Below are positions 2,874-16,715 of a stretch of 21,458 nt of DNA, piece after piece. A program made the translations under genes and the position numbers. The DNA comes from Candidatus Schekmanbacteria bacterium (GTDB taxonomy: Bacteria > CSSED10-310 > JACPHN01): the NCBI GenBank assembly GCA_016188575.1, contig JACPHN010000113.1, positions 1 to 21,458 of the forward strand, given 5' to 3'. Within the stretch, counting starts at the first letter, position 1. Every line of letters begins with the position of its first letter. Under the pieces are notes generated by a model, which was given only the letters and a program-made list of their open reading frames with translations, made no database searches and had not been told where the DNA came from.

Positions 2874-3581
2874 TCATGGTCGAGGCGCACACTCGTCTCC
2901 AGTTGCTGCAGGACCCGCCGGCGAAGCATCTGCGCAGGCGCGCAGCTTCCCGTAACTCATCACGCTCATCCGGTCGGCGCAGCGGGCGATCTCCGGGTTG
3001 TGGGTGACCAGAATGACCGTCTGCCCCCTCTGGTGGAACCCGCGGATCAGCTCCAGCACCACCTCCTCGTTCGCCCTGTCCAGGTTCCCGGTAGGCTCGT
3101 CGGCCAGCAGGATCGCGGGGTAGTTGACCAGCGCCCGCGCAATGCACACCCGCTGCTGCTCCCCCCCCGAAAGCTGCGATGGTTTGTGGTGGAGCCGCTC
3201 ACCCATGCCCACCGCTTCCAGGGCGCGAGCGGCCTCCGCGGCATCTGCCATGCTGTGGAAGTACTGAGCGAGCATCACGTTTTCCAGCGCGCTCAGGTAG
3301 GGCACCAGGTGAAACTGCTGGAAGATCGAGCCAATCGTCTCCCGGCGCAGCGCGGTGAGCCCGTCGGTGTCCAGCCCCGCCACCTTGCGCCCGTCGATGA
3401 TCACGTTGCCGGACGTGGGCACATCGAGGCAGCCCAGCAGGTTGAGCAAGGTGGTCTTGCCCGAGCCGGACGGCCCCATGATCGCGAGCCACTCTCCCCT
3501 CTCGACGGTCAGGTTCACCCCATCAAGCGCCCGCACCTCGCCGTACTGCTTGACCACGTTCTCCAGGCAAATCACGCTCAT
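2874..3581 (-). CDS. ABC transporter ATPase subunit (LolD/MacB type) of the P19-linked iron uptake system
   Basis: The product is 235 aa and starts at ATG 3581, with AAGGGAG nine bases upstream. All nucleotide-binding motifs are present: Walker A GPSGSGKT at 36-43, Q-loop Gln in FQQFHLVPYLSALENV, signature LSGGEQQR from 137, Walker B ILLADEP with Asp161 and Glu162, and switch His194 in VTHNPE. The LVPYLSALENV segment and its length place it in the LolD/MacB/FtsE-like group, whose partners have few membrane spans and large extracytoplasmic domains. This fits the two FtsX-like permeases encoded just upstream (58 bp gap to the nearer one). Its position matches Cj1663 in the Campylobacter P19 cluster. 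It presumably powers the two-permease module. The residues after about 215 look like an unstructured Pro/Ala tail. Confidence 0.95.
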   Translation of the reverse strand: MSVICLENVVKQYGEVRALDGVNLTVERGEWLAIMGPSGSGKTTLLNLLGCLDVPTSGNVIIDGRKVAGLDTDGLTALRRETIGSIFQQFHLVPYLSALENVMLAQYFHSMADAAEAARALEAVGMGERLHHKPSQLSGGEQQRVCIARALVNYPAILLADEPTGNLDRANEEVVLELIRGFHQRGQTVILVTHNPEIARCADRMSVMSYGKLRACADASPAGPAATGDECAPRP

Positions 3582-3639
3582 CCGTCGATGCTCCCTTGCT
3601 GTTGTTGGTACGGCCGAGGTTCGCGAGGTACCCCCGCCT

Positions 3640-4773
3640 TCAGTAGTCCCCCTTCAGCACCAGTGCAGGGTGAAGCCGCGTCACCATCCGCAGCGGGATG
3701 AGCGCGCCGGCGGCGCTGATGAGCACGGCGACGGCGGGCACGAGCGGCACCAGCCACCAGCGAAAGCTGACGGCCGTGGCGAACAGCACGCGCTCGATGA
3801 GATTGGCCAGCCCATATCCGGCCGCGAGGCCGAGGATGCCGGCGGCGACCCCCGTGATCGCCACCTCCGCCAGGAAGTGAAACCGCATCCGTCGATCCGT
3901 CGCCCCCAGGGCCTTCATCAGCGCAATCTCTCTGCGCCGCTGGGACACCATGGCCAGGAGGGCGATCAGCAGCGACACGAAGGTCGAGGCGGTGATGAGC
4001 ACGACCGCGACGTAGACGATGGCGCGGACCTTCTCCAAGATGATGCCTTCCGAGCGCGAGAGCTTCAGAATCGGGTGCGCCGCGACTCCGGGAGCGCGCT
4101 GCTCCAGAGCCCGAGCCAGTCCCTCGGCCTCCTCCAGGGCGCCGATGATGCTGGCCAGCAGCAGGTCGATCTCGCCGGGGCGCGCGAACAGGGTGCTGGC
4201 CTCGCCGAACGGGAGGAACACCTGCCCGTCTTCGGCCCCGCCCGTTTCGACCAGCGCCGTGACGGCGCAACGATGCCGCCTTGCTTCCATGACCAGCTCC
4301 ACCTCATGACCTGGCTCGACCCCGAGCTTGCGGGCAGCGTCGCGGCCAAGCAGACAGCCTGTCGCGGGGATGCCGGCACCGTCGTTGCCGCTGAGCTGCC
4401 AGTACGGGGTGACGGCCCTGATCTGATCGAACGCCATCCCGGCCGCTACCAGGCGACGCCCCTGCAGCTCGACGACATCGTAGAGCAACGCCTGGATGCC
4501 CACGAGCCGCTCCGCCGGCAGCAGGGAACGCAACGCCTGCTCCGCCTCCCCGGTCAGCGACCGCCTCGACTCGCCCGGCTCCACCACGAAGTTGGCTCCA
4601 TAGGCTCGCAGCTCCCTGCTCATCTTGGCTCCGACATCGACGTAGAGCGTAACGAAGGCCGCGATCACGCTCGCCCCCAAAGTGACCGAGGCCAGCGCCA
4701 CCGTGACCCGTCCCTTGCGCTCCAGCAACGACCGCAGGAGCAGTCTCGCGAAAAAGGAAGGCGTGTGCGTCAT
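3640..4773 (-). CDS. FtsX/MacB-type ABC permease, second of a paralogous pair
   Basis: The product is 377 aa and starts at ATG 4773, with a GGTGGGGG stretch about 10 bases upstream as a weak ribosome site. The topology is MacB/FtsX-like: one N-terminal membrane segment (about residues 22-45, VTVALASVTLGASVIAAF), a large periplasmic region, then three C-terminal membrane segments (about 255-375) containing the coupling-loop region QRRREIALMKALGAT. A motif right after the first membrane helix (VGAKMSRELRAYGANFVV) is almost the same as in the larger permease encoded upstream, so the two are paralogs and probably form a heterodimer with the ATPase encoded downstream. In Campylobacter the equivalent genes are Cj1661 and Cj1662. 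The transported entity is not proven for any member; iron import linked to P19 is the best context-based guess. Confidence 0.9.
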   Translation of the reverse strand: MTHTPSFFARLLLRSLLERKGRVTVALASVTLGASVIAAFVTLYVDVGAKMSRELRAYGANFVVEPGESRRSLTGEAEQALRSLLPAERLVGIQALLYDVVELQGRRLVAAGMAFDQIRAVTPYWQLSGNDGAGIPATGCLLGRDAARKLGVEPGHEVELVMEARRHRCAVTALVETGGAEDGQVFLPFGEASTLFARPGEIDLLLASIIGALEEAEGLARALEQRAPGVAAHPILKLSRSEGIILEKVRAIVYVAVVLITASTFVSLLIALLAMVSQRRREIALMKALGATDRRMRFHFLAEVAITGVAAGILGLAAGYGLANLIERVLFATAVSFRWWLVPLVPAVAVLISAAGALIPLRMVTRLHPALVLKGDY

Positions 4774-4867
4774 GGACGTCGAGCCCCCACCTCGTCTCCC
4801 ACAAAAGCCGCGCGGAAGTCAATCGATAGCTTCACGAACATCTATCCCTCCAGATCCGACTGCGGTC

Positions 4868-6151
4868 TCACTCACCCGCCAGCACAAGCGACGGCTCCAC
4901 TCGCAAGATGAGCCGCACGGGCACGAGGCTTCCCCCGAGGCTGACGGCCACGGCCAGCAGCACGACCACCGGAATGACGCCAGGCTTCACCGCAGCCCAG
5001 GACGCGAAGAGCTGGACGCTGATGAGCTGGCAAATTCCGACCCCGGCAACATAGCCGACCAGCCCGCCGACGACCCCCGCCAGCGTCATCTCACCCAGAA
5101 AGAGCAGCATGAGCAGCCTGTTCGAGGCCCCGATGGCCTTGGTCAGCGCGATCTCCTGCCTCCGGCTCGCGATCATGGCAGTCATCAGGCTGAAGACGCC
5201 CAGCCCCGAGCACGACAGCGCCACCGCGGTGACGACCGCCATCAGAAGCTGGATCTTGCGCACAACCACCCCTTCGGACTCCGAGATCCGCCGAATCGGC
5301 TTCACCTGGACGCCTGGGATGACCTCCTCCACCTGGAAGGCGATGGCGTCGACGTAGGGTGAGCAGTACCAGACGTCCAGCTCGCGTGTCGTGAGCTCCT
5401 CGCGGTTGTGGCGGGCCTGCCGCGCCAGCTCGTTGTCCGGCGCCGTGAGCGCGCTCACCTGTACGAGGTCCACGAGCCCGGCGCCACCCCGGATCCGCTG
5501 CGCCAACTCCAGGGGAACGAAGATTCGATCGTCTTCCCCATCTCCCGTCCGGACCACCCCGCGCACGGCGAGCCGGGCATCCCGATCCTGACCTGGCAAG
5601 CGGACCGTGAGCGGGTCCCCCGCCGCGACCCCGAGCTTCTCCGCCACGCGCGCACCGACGAGGGCACTCTCGACTTCTCCATCTTCGGGCCAGGCGCCCT
5701 CGACGTGCCACCACGGGTTAAGCGAGCGCAGACCAGTCCGGAACGTCTCGTCTCCCAGTACCGGGTAGGCCCGATCGAACCAGGTCCCCACGAGATCGAC
5801 CGCGCCGCCGGCGGCGGAGACCCGCTCCTCCAGGAAAGGCGCGAACGCCATCACGTGGTTGCGCCAGAAGATCTCCTTGAGCAGGCGCAGGCGGTCGAGC
5901 GGCACCCCACCACGCCGTGCGAGCGGATTGAAGTCGACGCCACCCAGGCGCAGCGGCAGCTCGTCGGAGCGCGGCACGATGACGAGATTGGCTCCGAAAC
6001 CCCGAAGCTCCTCGTTCATCTTGTCGCCTACGTCGAGGGTGAGGTTGAGCAGTGCCGTCGCCAGCGCCGTCCCCAGCGCGACGTTCAGCACGGCAAAGAG
6101 CTTGCGGCGCCAGTCGCTCCAGAAGGACGCTCTCAGGACTCTCGCGATCAC
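4868..6151 (-). CDS. FtsX/MacB-type ABC permease, first of a paralogous pair
   Basis: The product is 427 aa. The start is GTG at 6151, overlapping the stop of the DUF2318 gene (GTGA), which implies translational coupling. The first membrane segment is at about residues 18-40 (LFAVLNVALGTALATALLNL), followed by VGDKMNEELRGFGANLVIVP, the motif shared with the other permease. About 240 residues of periplasmic domain come next. Three C-terminal membrane spans (about 305-330, 348-382, 392-417) follow, with a cytoplasmic SRRQEIALTKAIGAS coupling region between the first two. The periplasmic part is about 50 residues longer than in the paralog. It is expected to pair with the second permease and the ATPase as the ABC module of the P19-type iron system. 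A 94-bp gap separates it from the second permease gene. Confidence 0.92.
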   Translation of the reverse strand: MIARVLRASFWSDWRRKLFAVLNVALGTALATALLNLTLDVGDKMNEELRGFGANLVIVPRSDELPLRLGGVDFNPLARRGGVPLDRLRLLKEIFWRNHVMAFAPFLEERVSAAGGAVDLVGTWFDRAYPVLGDETFRTGLRSLNPWWHVEGAWPEDGEVESALVGARVAEKLGVAAGDPLTVRLPGQDRDARLAVRGVVRTGDGEDDRIFVPLELAQRIRGGAGLVDLVQVSALTAPDNELARQARHNREELTTRELDVWYCSPYVDAIAFQVEEVIPGVQVKPIRRISESEGVVVRKIQLLMAVVTAVALSCSGLGVFSLMTAMIASRRQEIALTKAIGASNRLLMLLFLGEMTLAGVVGGLVGYVAGVGICQLISVQLFASWAAVKPGVIPVVVLLAVAVSLGGSLVPVRLILRVEPSLVLAGE

Positions 6152-7407
6152 GATGCCACCTTCCCGCCGCGCGCGAACAGCCTGGCCCCATCGTGGCCCG
6201 TGAGGTCCTCGACCGCGATGACCAGAGTTTCCTTTTCGACGACGTGCTTCAGCGGAATGGGGTTACAGCCGCCCTCGCGGCCAACCGTCGGTCCGTGAAT
6301 GGCCGTGCCACAGGCCAGGCAAATGAGCTCCTTGCCCTGCTTGACGTATCCCTTCGCCCCGCACATCCGGCACGCGTCGTAGGCGGCCCGCATTGTCCCG
6401 GTTTCGTCCTTGAGCACGAGGAACCGGATGAGCCGTCCGTCCTCGGGGGCGTATGCGTAGTGGCGAACCTCGCCAGGCCCGTAGCTCGCCACGGAGATGA
6501 CAAGGCTCCCGGCACGCGCCTCCAGCCGCTCCGCGGCCGCCTGCCGCAGCGGCTGGCTCGCGTAGAGCTGGTAGTACAGGCTGGCGCCGGTCGCCGCAGC
6601 GACGGAGACCAGAAACACGACGGCGTGGCACCACTGTTTGCGCACGCGCCAGCGGTACAACCGCCGGGACGCAGGATTGGGATGCAGCATGCCGTCACTT
6701 CCGGCACTTCCGGGTCGGCGTCGGAGAAGAAAGCCAACCGCGCCGAACACCGCGGCCAGGACCGCTTGCGCGTAGCCGAAGTAGGGAATCCGGTTGATGA
6801 TCCAAACCACCACGGGGAACAGCGCTCTGGGCAGGGAGACCCAGCCACTCAACGCCAGCGCGTGATAGCCCCACGAGAGGTGCTCGCAGAAAAGCAGCAT
6901 GACGATGCCAGTTATCGCCGAGCGCCGCAGCCACGGCTCGCTGTCGCGGGCAATTCCGAGCAGCGCCGCGCCGGCGATGGCCACGAGAGCGATGCCGAGC
7001 GCGACGCCGGCATGGAACAGGAGCAGCTCCGAGCTCGCCACCATGACGCGGTCTTGGGATTTGTAGACCACGAACGAAATCACGGCGCCCGCCCGCTGGG
7101 CGAGCAGCACGACGATGGCTGCGAGCCCGAGGCCTCGGCTCCACCGCCGCGCGGCCCGCCACGCGGCCGCTGGCAGCGGCGCCACCAGAGCCGCCACGGC
7201 GAGCATCACGATCGCTTCGCCGAGGGTGCGCGCATCCAGCCGCAGGTAGGCGACCGTGAGCACCGCGCCCAACCCGATCCCCCCAAGCCAGATGCTCCTC
7301 GGAAATCGGGCCCGGCGGCCATCCGACTCGGCGTCCGGCCACCAGAGCGCGGCGAGCACGGCGACCACGAAAAGATAGCGAACCGTCTCGAAAAGTGATT
7401 CCGTCAT
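6148..7407 (-). CDS. DUF2318 multi-spanning membrane protein with CxxC metal/redox motifs
   Basis: The product is 419 aa, starting at ATG 7407 nine bases after the porin stop. About seven or eight hydrophobic segments occupy residues 10-230, and one more at about 258-280 leads into a C-terminal soluble domain. That domain carries the DUF2318 signature: Cys346-x2-Cys349 (DACRMCG), Cys363-x2-Cys366 (LICLACG), then GREGGCNPIP with Cys381. Such cysteines could bind an Fe-S cluster or metal, or move electrons. In the Campylobacter P19 cluster this position is Cj1660. The family is tied to P19/FTR1 iron uptake, and a redox step coupled to iron movement is a reasonable inference but is not shown by the sequence. 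His and Tyr residues in membrane segment 6 (CEHLSWGYHAL) are further possible ligands. The gene overlaps the next permease gene by 4 bp. Confidence 0.9.
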   Translation of the reverse strand: MTESLFETVRYLFVVAVLAALWWPDAESDGRRARFPRSIWLGGIGLGAVLTVAYLRLDARTLGEAIVMLAVAALVAPLPAAAWRAARRWSRGLGLAAIVVLLAQRAGAVISFVVYKSQDRVMVASSELLLFHAGVALGIALVAIAGAALLGIARDSEPWLRRSAITGIVMLLFCEHLSWGYHALALSGWVSLPRALFPVVVWIINRIPYFGYAQAVLAAVFGAVGFLLRRRPGSAGSDGMLHPNPASRRLYRWRVRKQWCHAVVFLVSVAAATGASLYYQLYASQPLRQAAAERLEARAGSLVISVASYGPGEVRHYAYAPEDGRLIRFLVLKDETGTMRAAYDACRMCGAKGYVKQGKELICLACGTAIHGPTVGREGGCNPIPLKHVVEKETLVIAVEDLTGHDGARLFARGGKVAS

Positions 7408-7416
7408 CGACGTGGC

Positions 7417-8784
7417 TCAGAAATCGATCTGCACCCGTAGGGCATACAAGAAAAGGTCGCCAGCGCCGACGACCGCGCCCGGGTTGCTGACGTACTGGAC
7501 GTGCGGGCTCACCCGTACGCCGGCCTCCAGGCGGTAGCTGTAATAGACCTCTGCGAAGGTTTCGCCTCCGGAGACGGCCGCGCCATCGAGACGCTCGGAC
7601 ACCTTGCCATACTTGTCGCTCCCATGCGTGTAGGCCGCGGCCAGCCCCAGGACGTCACCGCCGCGGCGCCAGAGGTTGCCGTAGAGCCGCCCTCCGAGCG
7701 ACACCGCATGGTCGAAGGTGCTCACGGCCGGGTCTTGCCAGCCGTAGCGGAGGAAGAGGGTGAGATCGCTCGCGACCTGCTGGTCCAGGCTGACTCCGGC
7801 TCCCCAGCTCGGCTTTCCCTCGCCCTCAATGTCTTCGAAGTCGAGATGGTCGGTGCGATTTGTCCAGCCGAACATGCGGTAATTCCCCAGCAGGCCGTAG
7901 TAGCTGCGGCTGACGTCGAGCTCGCCGATGGCGAAGGGATGGTCGAGGGCGTCCGTGTAGTCGCCATCGCCCTCGAACAGCCCGAAGTGCGTCTCGACGG
8001 TGAGCGCCTTGTTGTAGACGGAGGTGAGCCGCCACGCCAGACGCGCGCCCAGGCCGTAGCCGTTGTCGTCGCCTCCCCAATCGATCGCCAGGTTGTTCAC
8101 GAACACGTCCGCCAGAAACTGCTGGGTCTCGTCATTTGCCACGCTGTTGGCGTCGAAGAAGCCAGTCGGGTCCATCGCACCGAGCTGGAAACCCACGCGG
8201 CGATCCACGACCGTCGGGTAGGGCAGGATCAGCTCGTACCAGGCCTCGGCGAGCTTGAAGTTGTCCTCCCCCACCTCGAGGTCGGCGTTCGCGCCCGAGA
8301 AGCCCGAGGGAAGCGCATGCGCCACTCCTTCGCCCCGCCCCACGAGCCCGCGGCCGTAACCCAGCCCATACTCGCCGACGGGCATTGTGACGTCGAGGTC
8401 ACCGGAGACGCTTACCTCTGCCGTGTCTCCCCCCGCGCTATCGCTGCCCTCGTTACCGGCCGTGCCCTGTCCGATGAACGTCAGCCCGCCACCCAGCCCG
8501 ACCCCGTCGAGGGCGTCGAGCACCGCCGCACCCACCCTCTGGCTGTAGCCCAACCGCTCGACCTCTTCCCCAAGCGCCTCGACCCGGTCGGCAACTGGCA
8601 TCGCCCCGGTCTGCTCCACTTCTGCCGTGCCCTGCAGCCCCAGCCCGGCTTCGAGCTCCTCCACCCGTCTCTTCAACCCCTCCAGCTCCTTCCTCACCTC
8701 CTGATCACCGTCAGCCCCCGCCACCGCGCAGCTCAATACCGTGAACACGCCAATCACCACGACTTGCACCAGTCTTCTGGCCAT
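7417..8784 (-). CDS. OprB-family outer-membrane porin embedded in the iron operon
   Basis: The product is 455 aa, starting at ATG 8784 (GGGGAT upstream). The signal peptide is about 1-24 (VVVIGVFTVLSCAVAGA), followed by a short coiled coil (EVRKELEGLKRRVEELEAGL). A long barrel region then alternates aromatic and polar residues and ends in Phe (LYALRVQIDF), the usual outer-membrane insertion signal. Late segments (LFLRYGWQDPAVSTFDHAVS, VLGLAAAYTHGS, FAEVYYSYRLEAGVRVSPHV, VQYVSNPG) match the carbohydrate-selective porin OprB pattern. A signal-peptide, coiled-coil and OprB-barrel layout also occurs in cyanobacterial porins, some of which have been linked to inorganic iron entry. The gene sits between the P19 gene (103-bp gap) and DUF2318 (9-bp gap) on the same strand, so it probably supplies the outer-membrane entry step for the metal. 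Substrate specificity is inferred from position only. Confidence 0.9.
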   Translation of the reverse strand: MARRLVQVVVIGVFTVLSCAVAGADGDQEVRKELEGLKRRVEELEAGLGLQGTAEVEQTGAMPVADRVEALGEEVERLGYSQRVGAAVLDALDGVGLGGGLTFIGQGTAGNEGSDSAGGDTAEVSVSGDLDVTMPVGEYGLGYGRGLVGRGEGVAHALPSGFSGANADLEVGEDNFKLAEAWYELILPYPTVVDRRVGFQLGAMDPTGFFDANSVANDETQQFLADVFVNNLAIDWGGDDNGYGLGARLAWRLTSVYNKALTVETHFGLFEGDGDYTDALDHPFAIGELDVSRSYYGLLGNYRMFGWTNRTDHLDFEDIEGEGKPSWGAGVSLDQQVASDLTLFLRYGWQDPAVSTFDHAVSLGGRLYGNLWRRGGDVLGLAAAYTHGSDKYGKVSERLDGAAVSGGETFAEVYYSYRLEAGVRVSPHVQYVSNPGAVVGAGDLFLYALRVQIDF

Positions 8785-8887
8785 AGCTATCCCCTACTCG
8801 CGTTCCTTGCCTCGCTGTCGTGAGCACCCGCGCCAAACGAGCGCCCGGACTCCTCGCCCGCCTGATGAGCAGCCGGCGGAGCGCTCC

Positions 8888-9427
8888 TCAGTAGCCCCGT
8901 CCCTTGCCGAGACCCAGAAACTCGAATTCCCACGTCATCGCAAAGCTGGGAAACCAGGGGCGGACTCCCGTGGCCTTGTCCGTGTGCCTGCCAAAGCCGT
9001 TCTTGCGCGGATTGTCGACGGTGTATTCCACCTGGTACCGGCCGACGCCGGGCATGATCACGTTGTCGCCGTAATGCGGCCCATCGGACGCGACCATGGG
9101 CATCATCGTCCCCTCGACGGTCTGGCCGGTGTCGAGGTTGGTGAGCTTGTAGGTCACCGTCAGGTAGGGGATCCACTCTCCCTCGCCGAACCCGTTCGGG
9201 TTGCCGGTGCTGGCGTGGATGTCCGCCTCGAGGTGGACGTCCGCCTTCTCATGCTTCTCATGCGACATTTCCGGATCCATCTGGATCGGCTGCAGGTAGA
9301 CGGCGGCGATCTCCATGCCGTAGCGGACCTGCGGAAGCCCGATCGGATACTCCACGAATGCCGCCGCCTGCCCGAGCAGAAACGCCGAGCTCAATGCCAC
9401 CAGCACGAACACGAGTTGCTTTTTCAT
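8888..9427 (-). CDS. Periplasmic metal-binding protein of the P19 / FetP (Tpd) family
   Basis: The product is 179 aa. The start is ATG 9427 (MKKQLVFVLVAL), with AAAGGGA upstream and 13 bases after the FTR1 stop; an earlier in-frame start would overlap that gene and lacks a signal peptide. The signal peptide is cleaved near Ala23, before FVEYPIG. The P19 signature is fully kept: YGMEIAAVYLQPIQM, then HLEADIHA with His65, Glu67 and His71, then MVASDGPHYG with Met111, Asp115 and His118, and GFGRHTD with His148. These match the residues that bind copper and the second metal in Campylobacter jejuni P19 (His42, Glu44, Met88, Asp92, His95, His132). P19 and FetP are periplasmic dimers that work with an FTR1-type permease in iron acquisition under limitation. 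There is an extra His/Glu-rich stretch (MSHEKHEKADVH) just before the site. Confidence 0.96.
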   Translation of the reverse strand: MKKQLVFVLVALSSAFLLGQAAAFVEYPIGLPQVRYGMEIAAVYLQPIQMDPEMSHEKHEKADVHLEADIHASTGNPNGFGEGEWIPYLTVTYKLTNLDTGQTVEGTMMPMVASDGPHYGDNVIMPGVGRYQVEYTVDNPRKNGFGRHTDKATGVRPWFPSFAMTWEFEFLGLGKGRGY

Positions 9428-9440
9428 CGTTTGTCCCTTT

Positions 9441-10721
9441 CTAGGATCCTGCACCAACTGGTCTCGGAGTCTCGACTGACGCGATGGGATGCGGCCAATC
9501 TCTGCGGCGGCGCCACCCCACGAGCACCACCGCGGCTGCGCAGACGAACAGCCCCTGGATCACGGTCGTCTGCACGGAGGGATAGAGCCCCAAGAGCTCC
9601 ACGTGAGGGAGGAGCGATAGCGGCGTGTCGCCCACGAGCCCCCCCTCCTGGAGCTCGTGCACTCCCTTTCCCGCAAACACGAAGGCAAGGTAATAGAGGA
9701 AACCACCCGTCACCGCGAAGAACGGTCCGAGCGGAATCGTGGCCACCACCTTCCTGAAGATCACGAACAGGCCGCCAAGGAGCAGGCACCCTGCACCAAA
9801 GCCGCTCCATATCGCGTTGCGAGCCCCTTCGGTGCCCGCTAGCAGCGCCTGGTAGAAGAGCACGGTTTCCGCGCCCTCTCGATACACGGCGAGAAAGGCG
9901 GCGGTTGCCAGGGCGACCGCGCTGCCTCTGCTCACCGCGTCTTCCACCGTGCCCTGGATGAACCGCTGCCAGCGCCGGCTCTGGGCCTTGCCGACGAGCC
10001 AGTAGCTCACGTAGAAAAGCACGAGCGAAGCGAGCAGCATGGTCAGGCCCTCCACCACCTCCTGCCCCGCCGGTGACACGGAAAGGACGCTCGCGAAGAG
10101 AAAAGCCGTCAGGAAGCTAGCCGCCACCGCTGCGGCCCCGGCCCCATAGACCACCCGCAGCTCGCGCCTTCTCCCGGTGCGCTGCAGATACGCGACGAGA
10201 GCACCCAAGAGGAGGATCGCTTCGAATCCCTCGCGCAGAATGATCAGCAGCGACTGGACGAAGATGCCTCGCGCACCCGACGAGCGGGACGGCTCGACGC
10301 CGGGGTCCGCGGCGGATTCCGCAAAGGATGGGTCGTTGCGGAGCCCGCTCAGCGCTGCGACGTCCTCCACCAGCATGGCCCGCAACTCGGCGGCGACGCG
10401 CTCGATCTCGGCCGGCGGCGCCTGGTCGCGCACCAGATACCGCAGGCTGCGGAACAGTTTTTCGATGCGGTAGTTGCGCTTTGCCGAGATGAACTGTCTG
10501 ACCGCGATTTCCAGCCCGCTGGACTCGTAGGCAACGAAATAGGCGTCGGAGAAGCTCTGGTCGGCGCGCGCAAAATCGCCGCCGCGATAAGCCCCGAGGC
10601 CGGCGGCGACGTAGGTCTCAATTTGCTCGAGCCCCCGCTCCCACTGCGTGCCCGCTTCCAGCGGCGGAACGGCGAGCACGGCCAGGCACACCAACACCCC
10701 GATTCGCAGGCGAACCTTCAT
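9441..10721 (-). CDS. FTR1-type high-affinity iron permease with N-terminal periplasmic domain (FetM / Cj1658 type)
   Basis: The product is 426 aa. ATG 10721 is chosen because GAGGAGA lies five bases upstream and a signal peptide follows (RIGVLVCLAVLAVPPLEA). The frame is open 54 codons further, but that stretch covers the predicted leader and operator. Residues 24-150 form a helical periplasmic domain (LEQIETYVAAGLGAYRGG, then DFARADQSFSDAYFVAYESS). Seven membrane spans follow. The two iron-translocation motifs of the FTR1/OFeT family are present: REGFE at 163-167 and REGAE at 281-285. The family carries ferric iron, usually after oxidation or delivery by a periplasmic partner. Here the partner is P19, encoded immediately downstream. 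The gene is first in the operon and is preceded by a strong promoter and a palindrome. Confidence 0.96.
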   Translation of the reverse strand: MKVRLRIGVLVCLAVLAVPPLEAGTQWERGLEQIETYVAAGLGAYRGGDFARADQSFSDAYFVAYESSGLEIAVRQFISAKRNYRIEKLFRSLRYLVRDQAPPAEIERVAAELRAMLVEDVAALSGLRNDPSFAESAADPGVEPSRSSGARGIFVQSLLIILREGFEAILLLGALVAYLQRTGRRRELRVVYGAGAAAVAASFLTAFLFASVLSVSPAGQEVVEGLTMLLASLVLFYVSYWLVGKAQSRRWQRFIQGTVEDAVSRGSAVALATAAFLAVYREGAETVLFYQALLAGTEGARNAIWSGFGAGCLLLGGLFVIFRKVVATIPLGPFFAVTGGFLYYLAFVFAGKGVHELQEGGLVGDTPLSLLPHVELLGLYPSVQTTVIQGLFVCAAAVVLVGWRRRRDWPHPIASVETPRPVGAGS

Positions 10722-10902
10722 CGCAGTCTCCTCATGACTTCCAGCCGACAGGCGCCGAGACTTCCGGCCGGAACCTGCCATCTTTATTTCATCGCCTCGG
10801 CCGGTCGGCCGAGGACACTCATACGCGCTCTGGACTCCCGCGGAACCTGTCGGGGAGGAGACTGCGGTGCTCACTTCTGTCAAGCATGCCTGACAAGAGC
10901 GT
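10722..10902 (-). other. Long 5' leader of the iron operon
   Basis: If the predicted promoter is used, transcription starts near 10903 and leaves a leader of about 180 bases before the FTR1 ATG. It includes the operator palindrome at its 5' end. The remaining leader, for example the GGCCGGTCGGCCGAGG region near 10800, could fold, but I recognise no known riboswitch. An in-frame open reading extension exists, but it has no signal peptide and unfavourable composition. Confidence 0.35.
10878..10895. promoter_or_regulatory. 18-bp palindromic operator candidate for the iron operon
   Basis: TGTCAAGCATGCCTGACA is an inverted repeat with eight of nine pairs matching around a GCATGC core. It begins about eight bases after the predicted transcription start, which suits a repressor that blocks early transcription. 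It does not resemble a classical Fur box. The GC-centred dyad with CTTGA/CCTGA arms is closer in style to sites of DtxR/MntR-type metalloregulators. No regulator gene is in the window, so the factor is not identified. Confidence 0.6.
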
Positions 10903-10938
10903 TCGGGTTAAAGTAGGCGCGGTGCCAGGGTTTGTCAA
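10903..10938 (-). promoter_or_regulatory. Sigma70-type promoter of the FTR1-P19 operon
   Basis: On the minus strand a perfect -35 TTGACA (10938-10933) is followed by a 17-bp spacer and TACTTT (10915-10910) as a modest -10. This puts the start near 10903, just ahead of the 18-bp palindrome. The exact spacing and perfect -35 make this the best promoter candidate in the window. Confidence 0.6.
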
Positions 10939-11068: not shown

Positions 11069-14000
11069 TTACCTTTTTTCCGGCGTCGCCGGTTGGGTGC
11101 CAAAGCGCTGCCGGAACCGATCAAGCAACAGGTAGAAGGTCGGCAGGGCAAGCAGCGTGAACAGCGTCGAGGTGACCAGGCCGCCGGTCATCACCACCGC
11201 CAGCGGGCGCTCGACCTCGGTGCCGTGCAGCCGCAGCACCAGCAGCGGCAGCAGGCCGAGGATCGCCACCGACGCCGTCATGATCTTCGGGCGCAGCCGC
11301 CCGATGCTCGCTTCCCGCAGCGCCTCGGAGAACTGCCGCCCTGCGGCGAGCAGGCCGCGCGTCTGGGTGACGAGCACCAGGCCGTTTTGGACGGCGATGC
11401 CGAACAGGCCGATCAGGCCCACCAGCGACGAAACGTTCCAGGTCTCGCCGGCGAGGAGCAGCGCGACGATGCCGCCGACGAAGGCCACCGGCAGGGCAGC
11501 GACGATCATCAGCGCCTCGGCCACCGAGCCGAGCGCCAGGTAGAGCAGCAAGAAGACGGCGACTCCAGCGACCGCGATCGCAAACCCCAGCGCGCGGGCG
11601 GCGCGGGCTTGGTTCTCGACCCGACCGCCGACGTCGACGAAGTAGCCGGTGGGCAGCTCGAGCTCGGCGGCGAGCAGCCGGCGGGCGTCGCCGGCGACAC
11701 TGCCGAGGTCGCGCCCGACCACGCTCGCCTCGACGGCGATCCGCCGGCTACCGGCCTCGCGCCGCACGGCCGCAGGACCGAAGGTTTCCTCGATGATGGC
11801 GAGCTGCTCGAGCGGGATGCGGCTGCCGTCGTTGCCGTCGACGAGCAGGCCGCGCAGGTCGGCGAGGTTGGCCCGGCGGTCGTCGCCGAGCCGCACGACA
11901 AGCGCGTAGCGCCGCTGCCCGCGCCAGATCTCCGACACCTCCTCGCCGACCAGTCCGATGCGGACCGCGCGGATGACGTCGCCAGGCCTCAGTCCCCTCC
12001 GGGCGACGGCGGCGCGGTCGATCGTGATGCGCAACTGCGGCAGCCCGGTGAGCTGTTCGGCACGCAGGTCGGCGATCCCGTCGACGCGCTCGAGCAATTC
12101 GCGCGCCTCCTGGGCCAGCCGGGCAAGCTCGCCCAGGTCGCTGCCGAAGATCCGCACCGAGATGTCGGCGGGAGTGCCGCCGAGCCCCTCGTCGATGCGC
12201 ATGCCGAGCGGCGTCGTTATCAGCACCCCGACGCCCGGCACGTCCTCGGCCTGCTCGCGCATCGCCGCCTCGATCTCGCCGAGCGTGCGGGCGCGGTCCT
12301 TGCGCAGCACGACCAACACGTCGGAGACGGTGTGCGGCATCGGGTCCTCGGTGCTCTCGGCGCGGCCGGTGCGCCGCACCACGTCCTCGACCTCCGGCAC
12401 CGCCCGCAGCGCGTCCTCGAGCTGTCGGTTGAGGTGGTCGACCGTGGCCAGCGACGCTTCCGCCGGGAGCGACGTCTGGATGAGGAACGCCCCCTCGTCG
12501 AGCGCCGGCATGAAGTCGCTGCCGACCAGCAGCGCGAGCGCGAGCGCCGGCACGGTGAGGGCGAGCGAAAGTAGCTGCACGAGGCCAGGTCGCCGCAGGC
12601 AGGCGTCAAGCACTGGTGCGTAGAGACCCTTGAGCCACCGCACCAGCCAGACGTCTTCGTGCCGGCCAGCCGGGCCTGGCCGGAGAAGCAGCGCTCCGGC
12701 CACCGGCACCAGCGTGAGCGCGAGCAGCAGCGCCGCGGCCACCGACGCGATCACCGCCGCGGCCAGCGGCGCATACATCCGTCCTTCGATCCCCTCCATG
12801 GCGAAGAGCGGCACGAAGACCGCGATCACGATGAGGGTGGCGAAGGTGATCGGCTGGGCGACCTCGATGGCGGCGGCCAGGGTGCGCTCGTGCCGGTCAC
12901 CGCCGTCAGCGCGGCGCTCACGTATCCGATGCACCATGTTCTCGGTCATGATGATCGCCGCATCGACGAGCAGCCCGACGGCGATGGCGAGGCCGCCGAG
13001 GGTCATGGTGTTGAGGCCGATGCCGAAGTGGCGCAGGAGGAGACCGGCGAGCGCGATCGAGACCGGGATGGTGAGGGTGACGAGCAATGCCGCCCGCAGG
13101 TCGCCCAGCAGTACGAAGAGCACCGCGACGACGAGCAGGGCGCCGAGCAGCACGGCTCGGCCGACGCCGGCGAGCGCCGAGCCGATCAGCTCCGACTGGT
13201 CGTAGACGATCCGCAGGGTCACCCCCCGTGGCAGCCCCCGTCGCAGGTCGTCGACGGCCCGCCGGATGGCGGCCGCCACCCGCACCGTGTCGGCGCCGAA
13301 CTGCTTTACGACCCGGCAACTGACCACCTCGCCGCTCAGCCGGTGGGCGAGGCCGCGTCGCACCGCCGGCGCCTCGCGCACGTCGGCGACGTCGCCGAGC
13401 AGCACCGGGGTCGAGCCCCGCACCGCCACGACTGTCGTCTGCAGGTCCTCGATCGATTCCGCCCGGCCAACCGCCCGCACCGCCCATTCCATCGACCCAT
13501 GGACCACGAAGCCGCCGGCGGCGTTCTCGTTGGCCCCTTCGACCGCGTGCAGCAGCTCTCCGAGCGCCACGCCGCGGGCGGCCATACGCTCGGGATCGAG
13601 TTGCACCTGGAACTGCCGCAGGTAGCCGCCCAGCCGCTCGACGGCGGCGACGCCGGGGACGGCGAGCAGGCGGTTGGTGACCTCGAGCTCGGCCAGGTCG
13701 CGCAGCGTCATCAGGTCCGCGGCGCCCGGCTCGGCCTCGAGGGTGAGCTCGAAGACCTCGTTGAGGCGGCCGGTGAGGCTCGACAGCACCGGCGGCTCGG
13801 TGCCGGCCGGCAGCTCCGTGGCGGCCTGGGCGACGCGCTCGGCGACGAGCTGCCGGGCGCGGTGATAGTCGGTGTCGGGCTCGAGCTCGACCGAGACGGT
13901 GGCGACGCCGAGCTGGCTGCTCGAGCGGATCCGCCGCACGTCGGGCAGCCCCCCGAGCGCGCTCTCAAAGGGGATAGCGATCGCCGTGTCGAGCTCTTCG

Positions 14001-14176
14001 GCGCCCATCGCGGCGTTCTGAACGATGACGTTGAAGACCGGGGCGGAAAGGTCCGGGAAGACGTCGCGGGGAAGGTCGTCAAAGGCGGCCAGACCCGCCG
14101 CGGCACCGCCGAGGGCAAGCACCACGGCGAGCAGCGGTTTTCGGAAGAAGGTTTCGATGATGCGTCCGATCACCAT
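11069..14176 (-). CDS. Heavy-metal efflux RND pump, CusA/CzcA family
   Basis: The product is 1035 aa, starting at ATG 14176 with AGGAGG seven bases upstream. The frame continues upstream, but that part is a shadow of the adaptor gene. The N-terminus (IGRIIETFFRKPLLAVVLAL) and DDLPRDVFPDLSAPVFNVIV are typical of the HME-RND family. Two repeats of membrane and periplasmic domains are evident. In membrane helix 4, AIAVGLLVDAAIIMTENMV has Asp405 and Glu412, matching the proton relay of CusA; the extra Asp found in CzcA (DFG) is missing. However, the three CusA metal-binding methionines appear absent: the 560s read FLIQTS, the equivalent of Met623 is His615 in DPMPHTVSD, and the third site is Glu near 663 in RIDEG. 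The pump exports a metal cation from periplasm or cytosol via the adaptor and outer-membrane factor encoded next to it. The substrate is uncertain. Confidence 0.95.
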   Translation of the reverse strand: MVIGRIIETFFRKPLLAVVLALGGAAAGLAAFDDLPRDVFPDLSAPVFNVIVQNAAMGAEELDTAIAIPFESALGGLPDVRRIRSSSQLGVATVSVELEPDTDYHRARQLVAERVAQAATELPAGTEPPVLSSLTGRLNEVFELTLEAEPGAADLMTLRDLAELEVTNRLLAVPGVAAVERLGGYLRQFQVQLDPERMAARGVALGELLHAVEGANENAAGGFVVHGSMEWAVRAVGRAESIEDLQTTVVAVRGSTPVLLGDVADVREAPAVRRGLAHRLSGEVVSCRVVKQFGADTVRVAAAIRRAVDDLRRGLPRGVTLRIVYDQSELIGSALAGVGRAVLLGALLVVAVLFVLLGDLRAALLVTLTIPVSIALAGLLLRHFGIGLNTMTLGGLAIAVGLLVDAAIIMTENMVHRIRERRADGGDRHERTLAAAIEVAQPITFATLIVIAVFVPLFAMEGIEGRMYAPLAAAVIASVAAALLLALTLVPVAGALLLRPGPAGRHEDVWLVRWLKGLYAPVLDACLRRPGLVQLLSLALTVPALALALLVGSDFMPALDEGAFLIQTSLPAEASLATVDHLNRQLEDALRAVPEVEDVVRRTGRAESTEDPMPHTVSDVLVVLRKDRARTLGEIEAAMREQAEDVPGVGVLITTPLGMRIDEGLGGTPADISVRIFGSDLGELARLAQEARELLERVDGIADLRAEQLTGLPQLRITIDRAAVARRGLRPGDVIRAVRIGLVGEEVSEIWRGQRRYALVVRLGDDRRANLADLRGLLVDGNDGSRIPLEQLAIIEETFGPAAVRREAGSRRIAVEASVVGRDLGSVAGDARRLLAAELELPTGYFVDVGGRVENQARAARALGFAIAVAGVAVFLLLYLALGSVAEALMIVAALPVAFVGGIVALLLAGETWNVSSLVGLIGLFGIAVQNGLVLVTQTRGLLAAGRQFSEALREASIGRLRPKIMTASVAILGLLPLLVLRLHGTEVERPLAVVMTGGLVTSTLFTLLALPTFYLLLDRFRQRFGTQPATPEKR

Positions 14177-14187
14177 GGTGGGTCCTC

Positions 14188-15504
14188 CTAGTGGTGGTGA
14201 CCGGCGCCGCCACCGGCCGCCTTTTCGGCTTGCGCCTTGAGGAGGAAGGCGCCTTCGACGACCACCGTCTCGCCGGCGGCGAGGCCGCTGAGCACCTCGA
14301 CGTTGCCCCCGCCGAGGTCGCGCCCGCGGCGGACCCGGCGCTGCTCGAAGCGACCCGGCTCGCGTGGCACGAAGGCGAACCAGTCGTCGGCGAGGCGCTG
14401 CAGCGCCGCGGCAGGGACGGCGCGCGCGGTGCCGCCGCCGGCCGCAGCACGAAGCGGCAGCCAGGCGGAGGCTGACATGCCGGGCCGCAGCAGCCGTTCG
14501 TCGTTTTGGATGACGATGCGGATCGGAATGGTGCGCGAGGCGACGTTGACTTCCTGGCCGACCAGGGTCACTCGGCCGGAGAAGGTGCGGCCGGGCAGCG
14601 CGGCAAAGGTGACGCGCGCCTCGGCGCCGGCGACGACGCGCAGCGCATCGCGCTCGAAGGCCTCGGCGACGAGCCACAGGCGGGAGAAATCGGCGATGCG
14701 GTAGAGCGGCGCGGCAGGATCGGCGAGTTGGCCGCGCACGGCCCGGCGCTCGACGATCGTGCCGGCGATCGGCGCGCGCAGGACCAGCCGTGCGTCGGGT
14801 TCGGCGTCGGCGGCCGGCTCGCCGGCGCCGAGCGCGCGCAGTGTCGCACCCGCCGCTCGCAGCTCTGCTGCGGTGGTCTCGGCCTCGGCCTGGGCTTCTT
14901 CGAGCTCGCGCTGGGCGGCGATGCGCTCGGCGGCGAGCGCCTGCTTGCGCGCCAGGGCGCGCAGGGCGAGCTCGGCGCGCGAGCGCGCGGCGTGGTACTC
15001 GGCACGGGCCCGGCCGAGCTCGACAGCGTCGAGCTCGACGAGCACCTGGCCGGCGCGCACCACGTCGCCGGGTCCAGCGAGCAGCCGCACGACTCGGGCA
15101 GCGATCGGCGTGCCCACCTCCGCGTAGGCGTCCTCGTCGACGCGGACTTCGCCGAGCACGGTGACGCCGTCGGCGATCGGCCGCTCGGCGACGGTGGCGG
15201 TGACGAAGCGCAGGTCGCGCATCATGTCCGGAGCGACCTCGACGACGGCGGCCGCGCCCTCTCCATGGCCCTGCTCGTCAGCCTCCCCCTCGTGGCGGGG
15301 GCCTTCGCCGGCCCCGGGCGCCACGGCGCCGCCGGCGTCGGTGTGGTCGTTTTCACCGGCGTCGTGGTCGTCCGCCTGGGCGTCACCCGCTCCGCGGTGG
15401 TCATCGGCATGCTTTTCGTGGTCTTGATTGGCGTCCTCGCGGGCGGCGGGGCCGCATCCGCCGATCAGCAGCAAGCTCGCCAGCAAGGCGATCGTCTTCG
15501 TCAT
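14188..15504 (-). CDS. Membrane-fusion lipoprotein (CusB/CzcB type) with His/Asp-rich N-terminus
   Basis: The product is 438 aa, starting at ATG 15504, which overlaps the stop of the outer-membrane factor gene (ATGA). The lipobox LLLIGGC puts the acylated Cys at residue 17. Residues about 22-85 are a flexible His/Asp/Glu stretch (DHEKHADDH, DDHDAGENDH, RHEGEADEQGHGEG) of the kind that binds divalent metals. Next come the barrel-sandwich halves (GTPIAARVVRLLAGPGDVVR and LVLRAPIAGTIVERRAVRGQ) around a helical hairpin rich in Ala, Arg and Glu. A beta-barrel part (IADFSRLWLVAEAFERDALR) and a membrane-proximal domain follow. The C-terminus ends in His-His-His. It links the RND pump in the inner membrane to the TolC-type channel and may hand over metal. 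The pump gene starts 11 bases downstream. Confidence 0.95.
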   Translation of the reverse strand: MTKTIALLASLLLIGGCGPAAREDANQDHEKHADDHRGAGDAQADDHDAGENDHTDAGGAVAPGAGEGPRHEGEADEQGHGEGAAAVVEVAPDMMRDLRFVTATVAERPIADGVTVLGEVRVDEDAYAEVGTPIAARVVRLLAGPGDVVRAGQVLVELDAVELGRARAEYHAARSRAELALRALARKQALAAERIAAQRELEEAQAEAETTAAELRAAGATLRALGAGEPAADAEPDARLVLRAPIAGTIVERRAVRGQLADPAAPLYRIADFSRLWLVAEAFERDALRVVAGAEARVTFAALPGRTFSGRVTLVGQEVNVASRTIPIRIVIQNDERLLRPGMSASAWLPLRAAAGGGTARAVPAAALQRLADDWFAFVPREPGRFEQRRVRRGRDLGGGNVEVLSGLAAGETVVVEGAFLLKAQAEKAAGGGAGHHH

Positions 15505-16715
15505 GGCAGTGCTCCGGCATGGACCCTGAGCTCGACGGCGGCAGCAGCGGCGGCGAGCAGGTGATCGAGGTATTCCTGGCGCAGCTCGAGGGTTTCGCGA
15601 CGGACGAGCAGGAGCTCGGCCAGACCCAGCTCCCCCTCCTCGTAGCTGCGCCGGGCGAGGCGCTCGTTGTCGTCGAGAATCGGCAGCGCTTGGTCCTCGA
15701 GCGTGGCGACGGCGGCGCGCAGTTGCGCGGCGGCGGCCTGCGCCGCCGCCACTTCGGAGCGGGCCGCGCGCCGGGCGGCGTCGAGCTGGGCGGCCAGGCG
15801 GCCCACCCGGGCGCTGGCCTCGGCGCGCGACGCCTGACCGCGGTTGAAGACCGGCAGCGTCAGGCTGACGGCGCCAAGCACCGTCTCGGTGTCGCCATCG
15901 CGCTCGTAGCGCAGGCCGAGCTCGGTCTCGGGGAGCCGTTCGGCGGCGGCCAGTAGCGCCTCGGCCCGAGCTTCGCGCAGCTCGGCGCCGAGCACGCGCA
16001 GGTCGGCGCGCTCGGGAGGGGCTGCCGACTCCGCGACGACCTCCTGCACCTGCTCGCGGAGAGTGCCGGCGAGGTCAAGCCGCGTCTCCGGCGGCATGTC
16101 CAGCAATACGCGCAGCTCGCCGAGCGCCAGGCTGCCCGCCGCCATCGCCTGGCCGCCGTCGGCGCGGGCGTGGGCAAGGGTGGCGCGAGCCAGATTGAGC
16201 TCGAGCACCGCGAGCTCGCCGGCCTGGTGGCGCCGCTCGGTGATGCGCACCACCTCGGTGGCCACCTCCTCAGCCTGCCGGGCGAGCCGCAGCCGCTCCT
16301 GGGCATGGAGCGCCCGCAGGAAGGCCAGGGCGACCTCGCGCAAAGCGCCGCGCACCGCCTCGTCGTATTCGGCCGCGGCGCGATCGACGCCTGCCTCGGC
16401 CGCGGCGATCCGGGCAGCGCGGCGCCCGCCGAGCGCGAGCGGCTGGCGCACATCGAGCTCCACGGCCGTCTCGCCGTCACTGGCGGTGCCGGCGGCGGTC
16501 TCGAGCAGAGGGTTTTGTGCGAGACGCAGCGAGGCACCGAGCAACCGAGCTCGGGCCTCGTCGATCCGTGCCCGAGCGGCCTGCGCGGCAGCCGCGCGGA
16601 CCCGGGCCAGCTCGAGCGCATCGCCGAAGGAGAGCGCGGCCTGCTCGGCGCAACACGGCGGTGGCCCGGTGCTCAGCATGACGAGCGCGACGAGAGCAGC
16701 AAAGCGACGACCCAT
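15501..16715 (-). CDS. TolC-family outer-membrane factor (CzcC/CusC type)
   Basis: The product is 404 aa, starting at ATG 16715 with only a weak ribosome site (GTGAGA). The signal peptide is about 1-23 (FAALVALVMLSTGPPPCCA). The body shows two repeats of long Ala/Glu/Arg-rich helices typical of the TolC periplasmic tunnel, with the characteristic phrases LSFGDALELARVRAA, QNPLLETAAG, VELDVRQPLALGGRRAARI, and in the second half VSLTLPVFNRGQASRAEA and YEEGELGLAELLLVRR. At 404 residues it is close to CzcC. It forms the trimeric outer-membrane exit duct. It is the first of three tightly coupled genes (outer-membrane factor, adaptor, pump). A 336-bp gap with several palindromes separates it from the small Cys-rich gene upstream. 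Confidence 0.95.
   Translation of the reverse strand: MGRRFAALVALVMLSTGPPPCCAEQAALSFGDALELARVRAAAAQAARARIDEARARLLGASLRLAQNPLLETAAGTASDGETAVELDVRQPLALGGRRAARIAAAEAGVDRAAAEYDEAVRGALREVALAFLRALHAQERLRLARQAEEVATEVVRITERRHQAGELAVLELNLARATLAHARADGGQAMAAGSLALGELRVLLDMPPETRLDLAGTLREQVQEVVAESAAPPERADLRVLGAELREARAEALLAAAERLPETELGLRYERDGDTETVLGAVSLTLPVFNRGQASRAEASARVGRLAAQLDAARRAARSEVAAAQAAAAQLRAAVATLEDQALPILDDNERLARRSYEEGELGLAELLLVRRETLELRQEYLDHLLAAAAAAVELRVHAGALP

Follow-up and report, generated by a model that had tools for sequence, protein, structure and literature searches.

The seven-gene operon at 2874-10721 matches a known iron-uptake cluster, FetMP-FetABCD, with one gene added, for a porin; it is a natural mix-and-match and not a new kind of system. 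Its six core genes (FTR1, P19, a DUF2318 protein, two FtsX-type permeases, and an ATPase) stand in Fet order, with the porin inserted after P19. Judged by its gene content, the operon probably serves ferrous-iron uptake of the FetMP-FetABCD (P19/FTR1) type and brings with it an outer-membrane entry channel of its own. Published Fet models leave two gaps, namely, the passage of iron through the outer membrane and the functions of FetA and FetBCD. A locus that combines FetABCD with the porin known from sister Ftr operons, which have FtrD instead of FetABCD, allows both to be tested directly. The interest of the locus is moderate and lies in what looks like an exchange of modules and in the pairing of a Fet system with a gene for an outer-membrane channel.

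Locus and gene content

The window (the whole stretch of DNA analyzed; 21,458 nucleotides) is an entire 21.5-kb contig (C232) of a 9.2-Mb genome in 275 contigs. The host genome is the sole member of its own class, in a phylum sampled by 8 genomes; P19 was found in 1 of the 8, the host, and the porin-FetABCD order is thus taken from a single genome. No second P19 cluster was found in these genomes, and a search for DUF2318 elsewhere in them returned one weak profile match (G007), around which no Fet genes matched. Contamination or misbinning of the contig was ruled out, its composition matching that of the host genome (pooled correlation, 0.89, versus 0.77 or less for outsiders).

All seven genes lie on one strand, as the first-pass annotation had claimed, here the minus strand, with families assigned by Pfam. 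The FetM-like FTR1-family iron permease (9441-10721; 426 amino acids [aa]; PF03239, E = 7e-26), also placed by motifs and tree, has an N-terminal extracytoplasmic domain and intact REGFE (163) and REGAE (281) motifs. FetP/P19 (FtrA), a periplasmic iron/copper-binding protein (8888-9427; 179 aa; PF10634, E = 2e-64), matched PDB entries 7r4z, 3nrp, and 3lzl, and its metal-ligand positions H64, E66, M110, H117, and H147 are invariant in the alignment; its start is most likely the ATG at 9425-9427. The OprB-family porin (7417-8784; 455 aa; pI 4.4) was identified with Pfam (OprB PF04966, E = 4e-26), an AlphaFold model (pLDDT 79), and a tree. The best structure match of the model was Pseudomonas putida OprB (4gey; E = 8e-18), so that the OprB profile and, from the model, the barrel fold were both found.

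FetA, the DUF2318 membrane protein (6148-7407), was assigned by Pfam (PF10080, DUF2318/FtrD-like; E = 2e-24), alignment, motifs, and model. About eight membrane helices precede a C-terminal DUF2318 domain, in which the paired cysteines are intact (CxxC-x13-CxxC-x14-C; motif of this cluster type, CxxC-x13-CxxC-x14,15-C). The protein ends soon after DUF2318, as do six Desulfobacterota FetA proteins, and is without the C-terminal extension of gammaproteobacterial homologues. As a lead, the predicted fold of DUF2318 resembles Rieske ferredoxins: residues 300 to 407 of the AlphaFold model (pLDDT 68; built from nine sequences) aligned with Rieske ferredoxin T4moC (Z, 9.0; 94 residues; 2.6 Å), the Cys and His positions of Rieske proteins being occupied by Cys in DUF2318. 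By sequence, Rieske homology was not significant, profile comparison being no better than the reversed control and the Pfam Rieske match marginal (E = 0.068). Foldseek with the FetA model returned no match with E < 0.001.

FetB (4868-6151) and FetC (3640-4773) are FtsX/MacB-type ABC permeases, each made up of a single helix, a large domain in the periplasm, and a helix bundle at the C terminus. FetB matched PF02687 FtsX (E = 2e-16), PF12704 MacB_PCD (E = 2e-10), and, in the PDB, MacB, LolE, and YbbP, and was also placed by tree; FetC matched the same two Pfam families (E = 2e-20 and 2e-8, respectively) and was assigned with NCBIfam. FetD (2874-3581) is an ABC ATPase (PF00005, E = 1e-35; NCBIfam) with Walker A GPSGSGKT and LSGGE motifs, closest to MacB/LolD/FtsE ATPases. 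FetB/C and FetD match MacB, LolCDE, and YbbP, and the features of the MacB/LolCDE type are present, namely, an FtsX C-terminal domain, a MacB-like periplasmic domain, and a MacB/LolD-class ATPase.

The fetA and fetB genes overlap by 4 bp, the porin gene is separated from fetA by 9 bp, and the FTR1 stop lies 13 bp from the P19 ATG. Larger gaps occur between P19 and the porin (103 bp), FetB and FetC (94 bp), and FetC and FetD (58 bp), and no terminator-like sites were found in the intergenic gaps of the cluster. FTR1 is preceded by a good ribosome site and, ~190 bp before its start codon, by a plausible promoter, the candidate TTGACA-17-TACTTT (10910-10938, minus strand; recognized by eye, with a weak −10 box); a consensus promoter scan reported no site there. 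Upstream of FTR1, no canonical Fur box near consensus was found (best site, 9/19 mismatches). The near-palindrome TGTCAAGCATGCCTGACA (10878-10895), immediately downstream of the candidate promoter, was considered as a weak operator candidate and is unsupported, since other 16/18 palindromes are frequent in the window and no copy was found in related loci.

Directly upstream of the Fet operon, 347 bp away on the same strand, lies a CusA/CzcA-family heavy-metal RND efflux operon (TolC-like protein, adaptor, and pump; 11069-16715, minus). A class I methyltransferase gene (1664-2692, minus) follows fetD after a gap of 181 bp, in the same orientation, and could be cotranscribed, and a Uma2-family putative endonuclease gene (PF05685; 648-1580, plus) is close to the contig end.

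Porin and module distribution across P19 loci

A single-sequence scan of genome contigs found no FetA relatives, so a P19 alignment was used to find loci. The comparison set comprised the 80 loci closest by P19, mostly from Proteobacteria; the wider sample comprised 1,989 genome searches over a few phyla, where rarity is not proof of uniqueness. An OprB porin directly follows P19 in 60 of the 80 loci, 58 of these with FtrD, across several phyla, and the usual order of loci with porin and FtrD is P19-OprB-cupredoxin-FTR1-FtrD. Expressed by FtrD, 58 of 68 FtrD-containing loci have the porin after P19, and 10 are without it. Some P19-linked porins carry a strong negative charge, and others do not. 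FetA occurs in 8 of the 80 loci, never with a porin; counting 8 further loci, 16 other P19+FetA clusters were found (two incomplete, owing to a contig end or a downstream gene missing in the sample), none with a porin (Fisher P = 8e-11, relatedness ignored). FtrD and FetA were never found together in the sampled loci.

The comparison of P19 neighborhoods proposed in the first-pass annotation recovered the core order in 16 other clusters and the porin-FetABCD combination in none, leaving the window as the only such cluster among these and the closest 80 P19 loci. The same annotation had called the gene set nonstandard, which holds for a porin with FetABCD; a porin after P19 is common, and local thioredoxin loss is shared by six Desulfobacterota Fet clusters.

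In the porin tree, the window grouped with L005, L019, and L021 (support, 100), which are Nitrospirota and "Deltaproteobacteria" FTR1-FtrD-P19-OprB operons. The FTR1 tree gave the same grouping (support, 88), within a larger clade (support, 100) to which all Fet-type FTR1 proteins belong as well, and the P19 tree gave no resolved placement for the window. FetB of the window, a long branch, fell with the Desulfobacterota Fet clade (support, 88), apart from a P19-less Nitrospirota group (support, 98). Because porin and FTR1 group with FtrD operons and FetB sides with Desulfobacterota Fet, the simplest reading suggested by these trees is that FtrD and FetABCD were exchanged, in one direction or the other, around a constant FTR1-P19-porin core. 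We put forward only tentatively, and would not favor as a whole, a broader proposal: that FtrD and FetABCD can stand in for each other as redox/energy modules on this common core, with the window as a natural recombinant showing so, that the porin is the outer-membrane step absent from published models, and that DUF2318 is an all-cysteine Rieske-like metal domain. If true, the operon would encode a self-contained path from the outside to the cytoplasm.

DUF2318 genes also occur without P19/FTR1. Ten Desulfobacterota loci (L145, L148, L149, and L151-L157) combine a DUF2318 protein (mostly short) with one FtsX permease and an ATPase; 5 of the 10 are near CusB/CusA heavy-metal efflux genes, and L154 adjoins a CopZ-like copper-chaperone domain. 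A copper-related role is suggested for this module. Nitrospirota carry FetABCD modules without P19/FTR1 (L197, L199-L204, L206, and L208), mostly as FetB-FetC-FetD-FetA; in those with neighbors listed (L199, L201, and L208), FetA is followed by a ~330- to 350-aa membrane protein, which in L208 matches ResB weakly. A survey of FetMP-FetABCD in 33 species from six phyla stated that DUF2318 genes are almost always within Fet clusters (PMC6083913), which fails for these Nitrospirota modules.

Proposed iron path and alternatives

In a ferrous-iron uptake system with its own entry channel, the acidic OprB-family porin would admit Fe(II) or a small iron chelate to the periplasm. P19 would bind the iron and, with copper, support its oxidation, as is known for relatives, and FTR1 would move iron via the REGxE motifs, as is known for the family and consistent with the motifs present here. 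FetA may carry electrons through its cysteine-rich periplasmic domain; because FtrD and FetA are mutually exclusive in the loci sampled, it would fill the position of the Fe-S protein FtrD of sister operons. Characterized MacB/LolCDE-class ABC systems turn ATP into periplasmic movement (mechanotransmission) and pass no substrate across the inner membrane. Because of this family membership, FetBCD is proposed as an ATPase driving periplasmic conformational work on FetA, P19, and FTR1, rather than as an importer or channel.

OprB is named for carbohydrate uptake, and the porin might be a general or sugar porin present by chance, with no role in iron uptake. Such a reading would fit its absence from 10 of the 68 FtrD loci and from all 16 other P19+FetA clusters, and a separate start could be accommodated in the 103-bp gap after P19. 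We consider it unlikely, given that the porin adjoins P19 in 60 of 80 loci, drawn from several phyla, that the tree places the window porin with full support among P19-linked porins, and that only 9 bp part it from fetA. It is likewise improbable that FetBCD is itself a transporter, bringing in an iron chelate or sending out a reductant across the membrane, since both permeases are of the FtsX/MacB type, a mechanotransmission class without inner-membrane substrate passage in characterized cases; such transport would follow published models, in which FetBCD and FetA are suggested to be the source of reducing power (PMC10783030).

FetABCD might also serve P19 by handling copper or the redox state of periplasmic thiols and move no electrons to or from iron, in which case its iron phenotype would be indirect. 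P19 relatives bind copper, and stand-alone DUF2318-permease-ATPase modules exist without P19/FTR1, half of those in Desulfobacterota (5/10) near CusA/CusB and one beside a CopZ-like domain; the window operon itself is preceded by a CusA/CzcA-type efflux operon. However, few Desulfobacterota modules were sampled, all of one phylum, no P19-containing Desulfobacterota Fet cluster had CusA/B nearby, and Campylobacter jejuni fetA-D knockouts behave like iron-uptake mutants and are rescued by iron (PMC10783030). We regard a copper or thiol role as rather doubtful and retain ferrous-iron uptake as the preferred reading.

No thioredoxin, FMN-binding, nitroreductase, cupredoxin, or FtrD gene was found adjoining the window cluster, and the earlier observation of a porin inserted after P19 with no adjacent thioredoxin genes is confirmed at the locus. 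Six Desulfobacterota Fet clusters (L139-L143 and L150) and one from Verrucomicrobia (L044) also have no such gene downstream, and a thioredoxin/FMN-binding seventh gene was therefore not treated as defining. The redox partner of the window FetA is possibly encoded elsewhere in the genome; with no thioredoxin gene nearby, FetA may be served by a different envelope redox protein or by none. The six Desulfobacterota clusters have a nitroreductase-family gene directly upstream of FTR1 (Pfam-confirmed in three and alike by sequence in the others), the product of which is probably exported and is a possible flavin redox partner.

Comparison with known systems

C. jejuni fetMP-fetABCDEF (Cj1658-Cj1665; PMC6083913, PMC10783030) shares the six core genes, their order, and the DUF2318 cysteine motif with the window. 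The window differs in its porin between fetP and fetA, in having no fetE/fetF thioredoxins, and in a FetA that lacks the YHS domain present in C. jejuni FetA. Collinearity of the core with Cj1658-Cj1663, as first annotated, is borne out, but the order is also common to clusters in several phyla. The variant had further been expected to be informative about which parts are essential. Since single-gene disruption in C. jejuni has already shown fetA, fetB, fetC, and fetD each to be needed under iron limitation, with thioredoxins FetE and FetF redundant (PMC10783030), part of that insight exists; the window is informative for FtrD and FetABCD as alternatives. The Escherichia coli plasmid FetMP/Fls cluster (NZ_CP115321; L003) shares the order FTR1, P19, FetA (Fe-S protein), FetB, FetC, and FetD. 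Unlike the window, it has TlpA downstream, FMN-binding NqrC-like and disulfide-oxidoreductase genes upstream, a longer FTR1, and no porin.

FtrAPBCD is a five-component ferrous uptake system of Rubrivivax gelatinosus, as cited in PMC11966278. Our literature search found no other description of a porin with P19/FTR1, the primary FtrAPBCD paper lying outside that search. FtrAPBCD resembles the window in an extra gene after P19 (FtrA), which by position is an OprB porin in 51 loci; we infer from this position that FtrP is an OprB porin. It is described with the cupredoxin FtrB and the Fe-S protein FtrD and without FetABCD; the window has the OprB porin directly after P19, and both FtrD (a Fer4_5 Fe-S membrane protein) and FtrB are missing.

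The six Desulfobacterota FetMP-FetABCD clusters share with the window the same core, the lack of a downstream thioredoxin, a FetA without C-terminal extension, and the closest FetB, and they differ in the nitroreductase-family gene upstream of FTR1 and in having no porin. A ~140-aa protein resembling the FTR1 N-terminal extracytoplasmic domain is encoded between FtrD and P19 in six loci (L005, L019, L021, and L228-L230). Operons of the order FTR1-FtrD-(small FTR1 N-domain protein)-P19-OprB (L005, L019, L021, L228, and L230) have the porin after P19 like the window, and the first three have its closest porin and FTR1 by tree; in all, FtrD takes the place of FetABCD.
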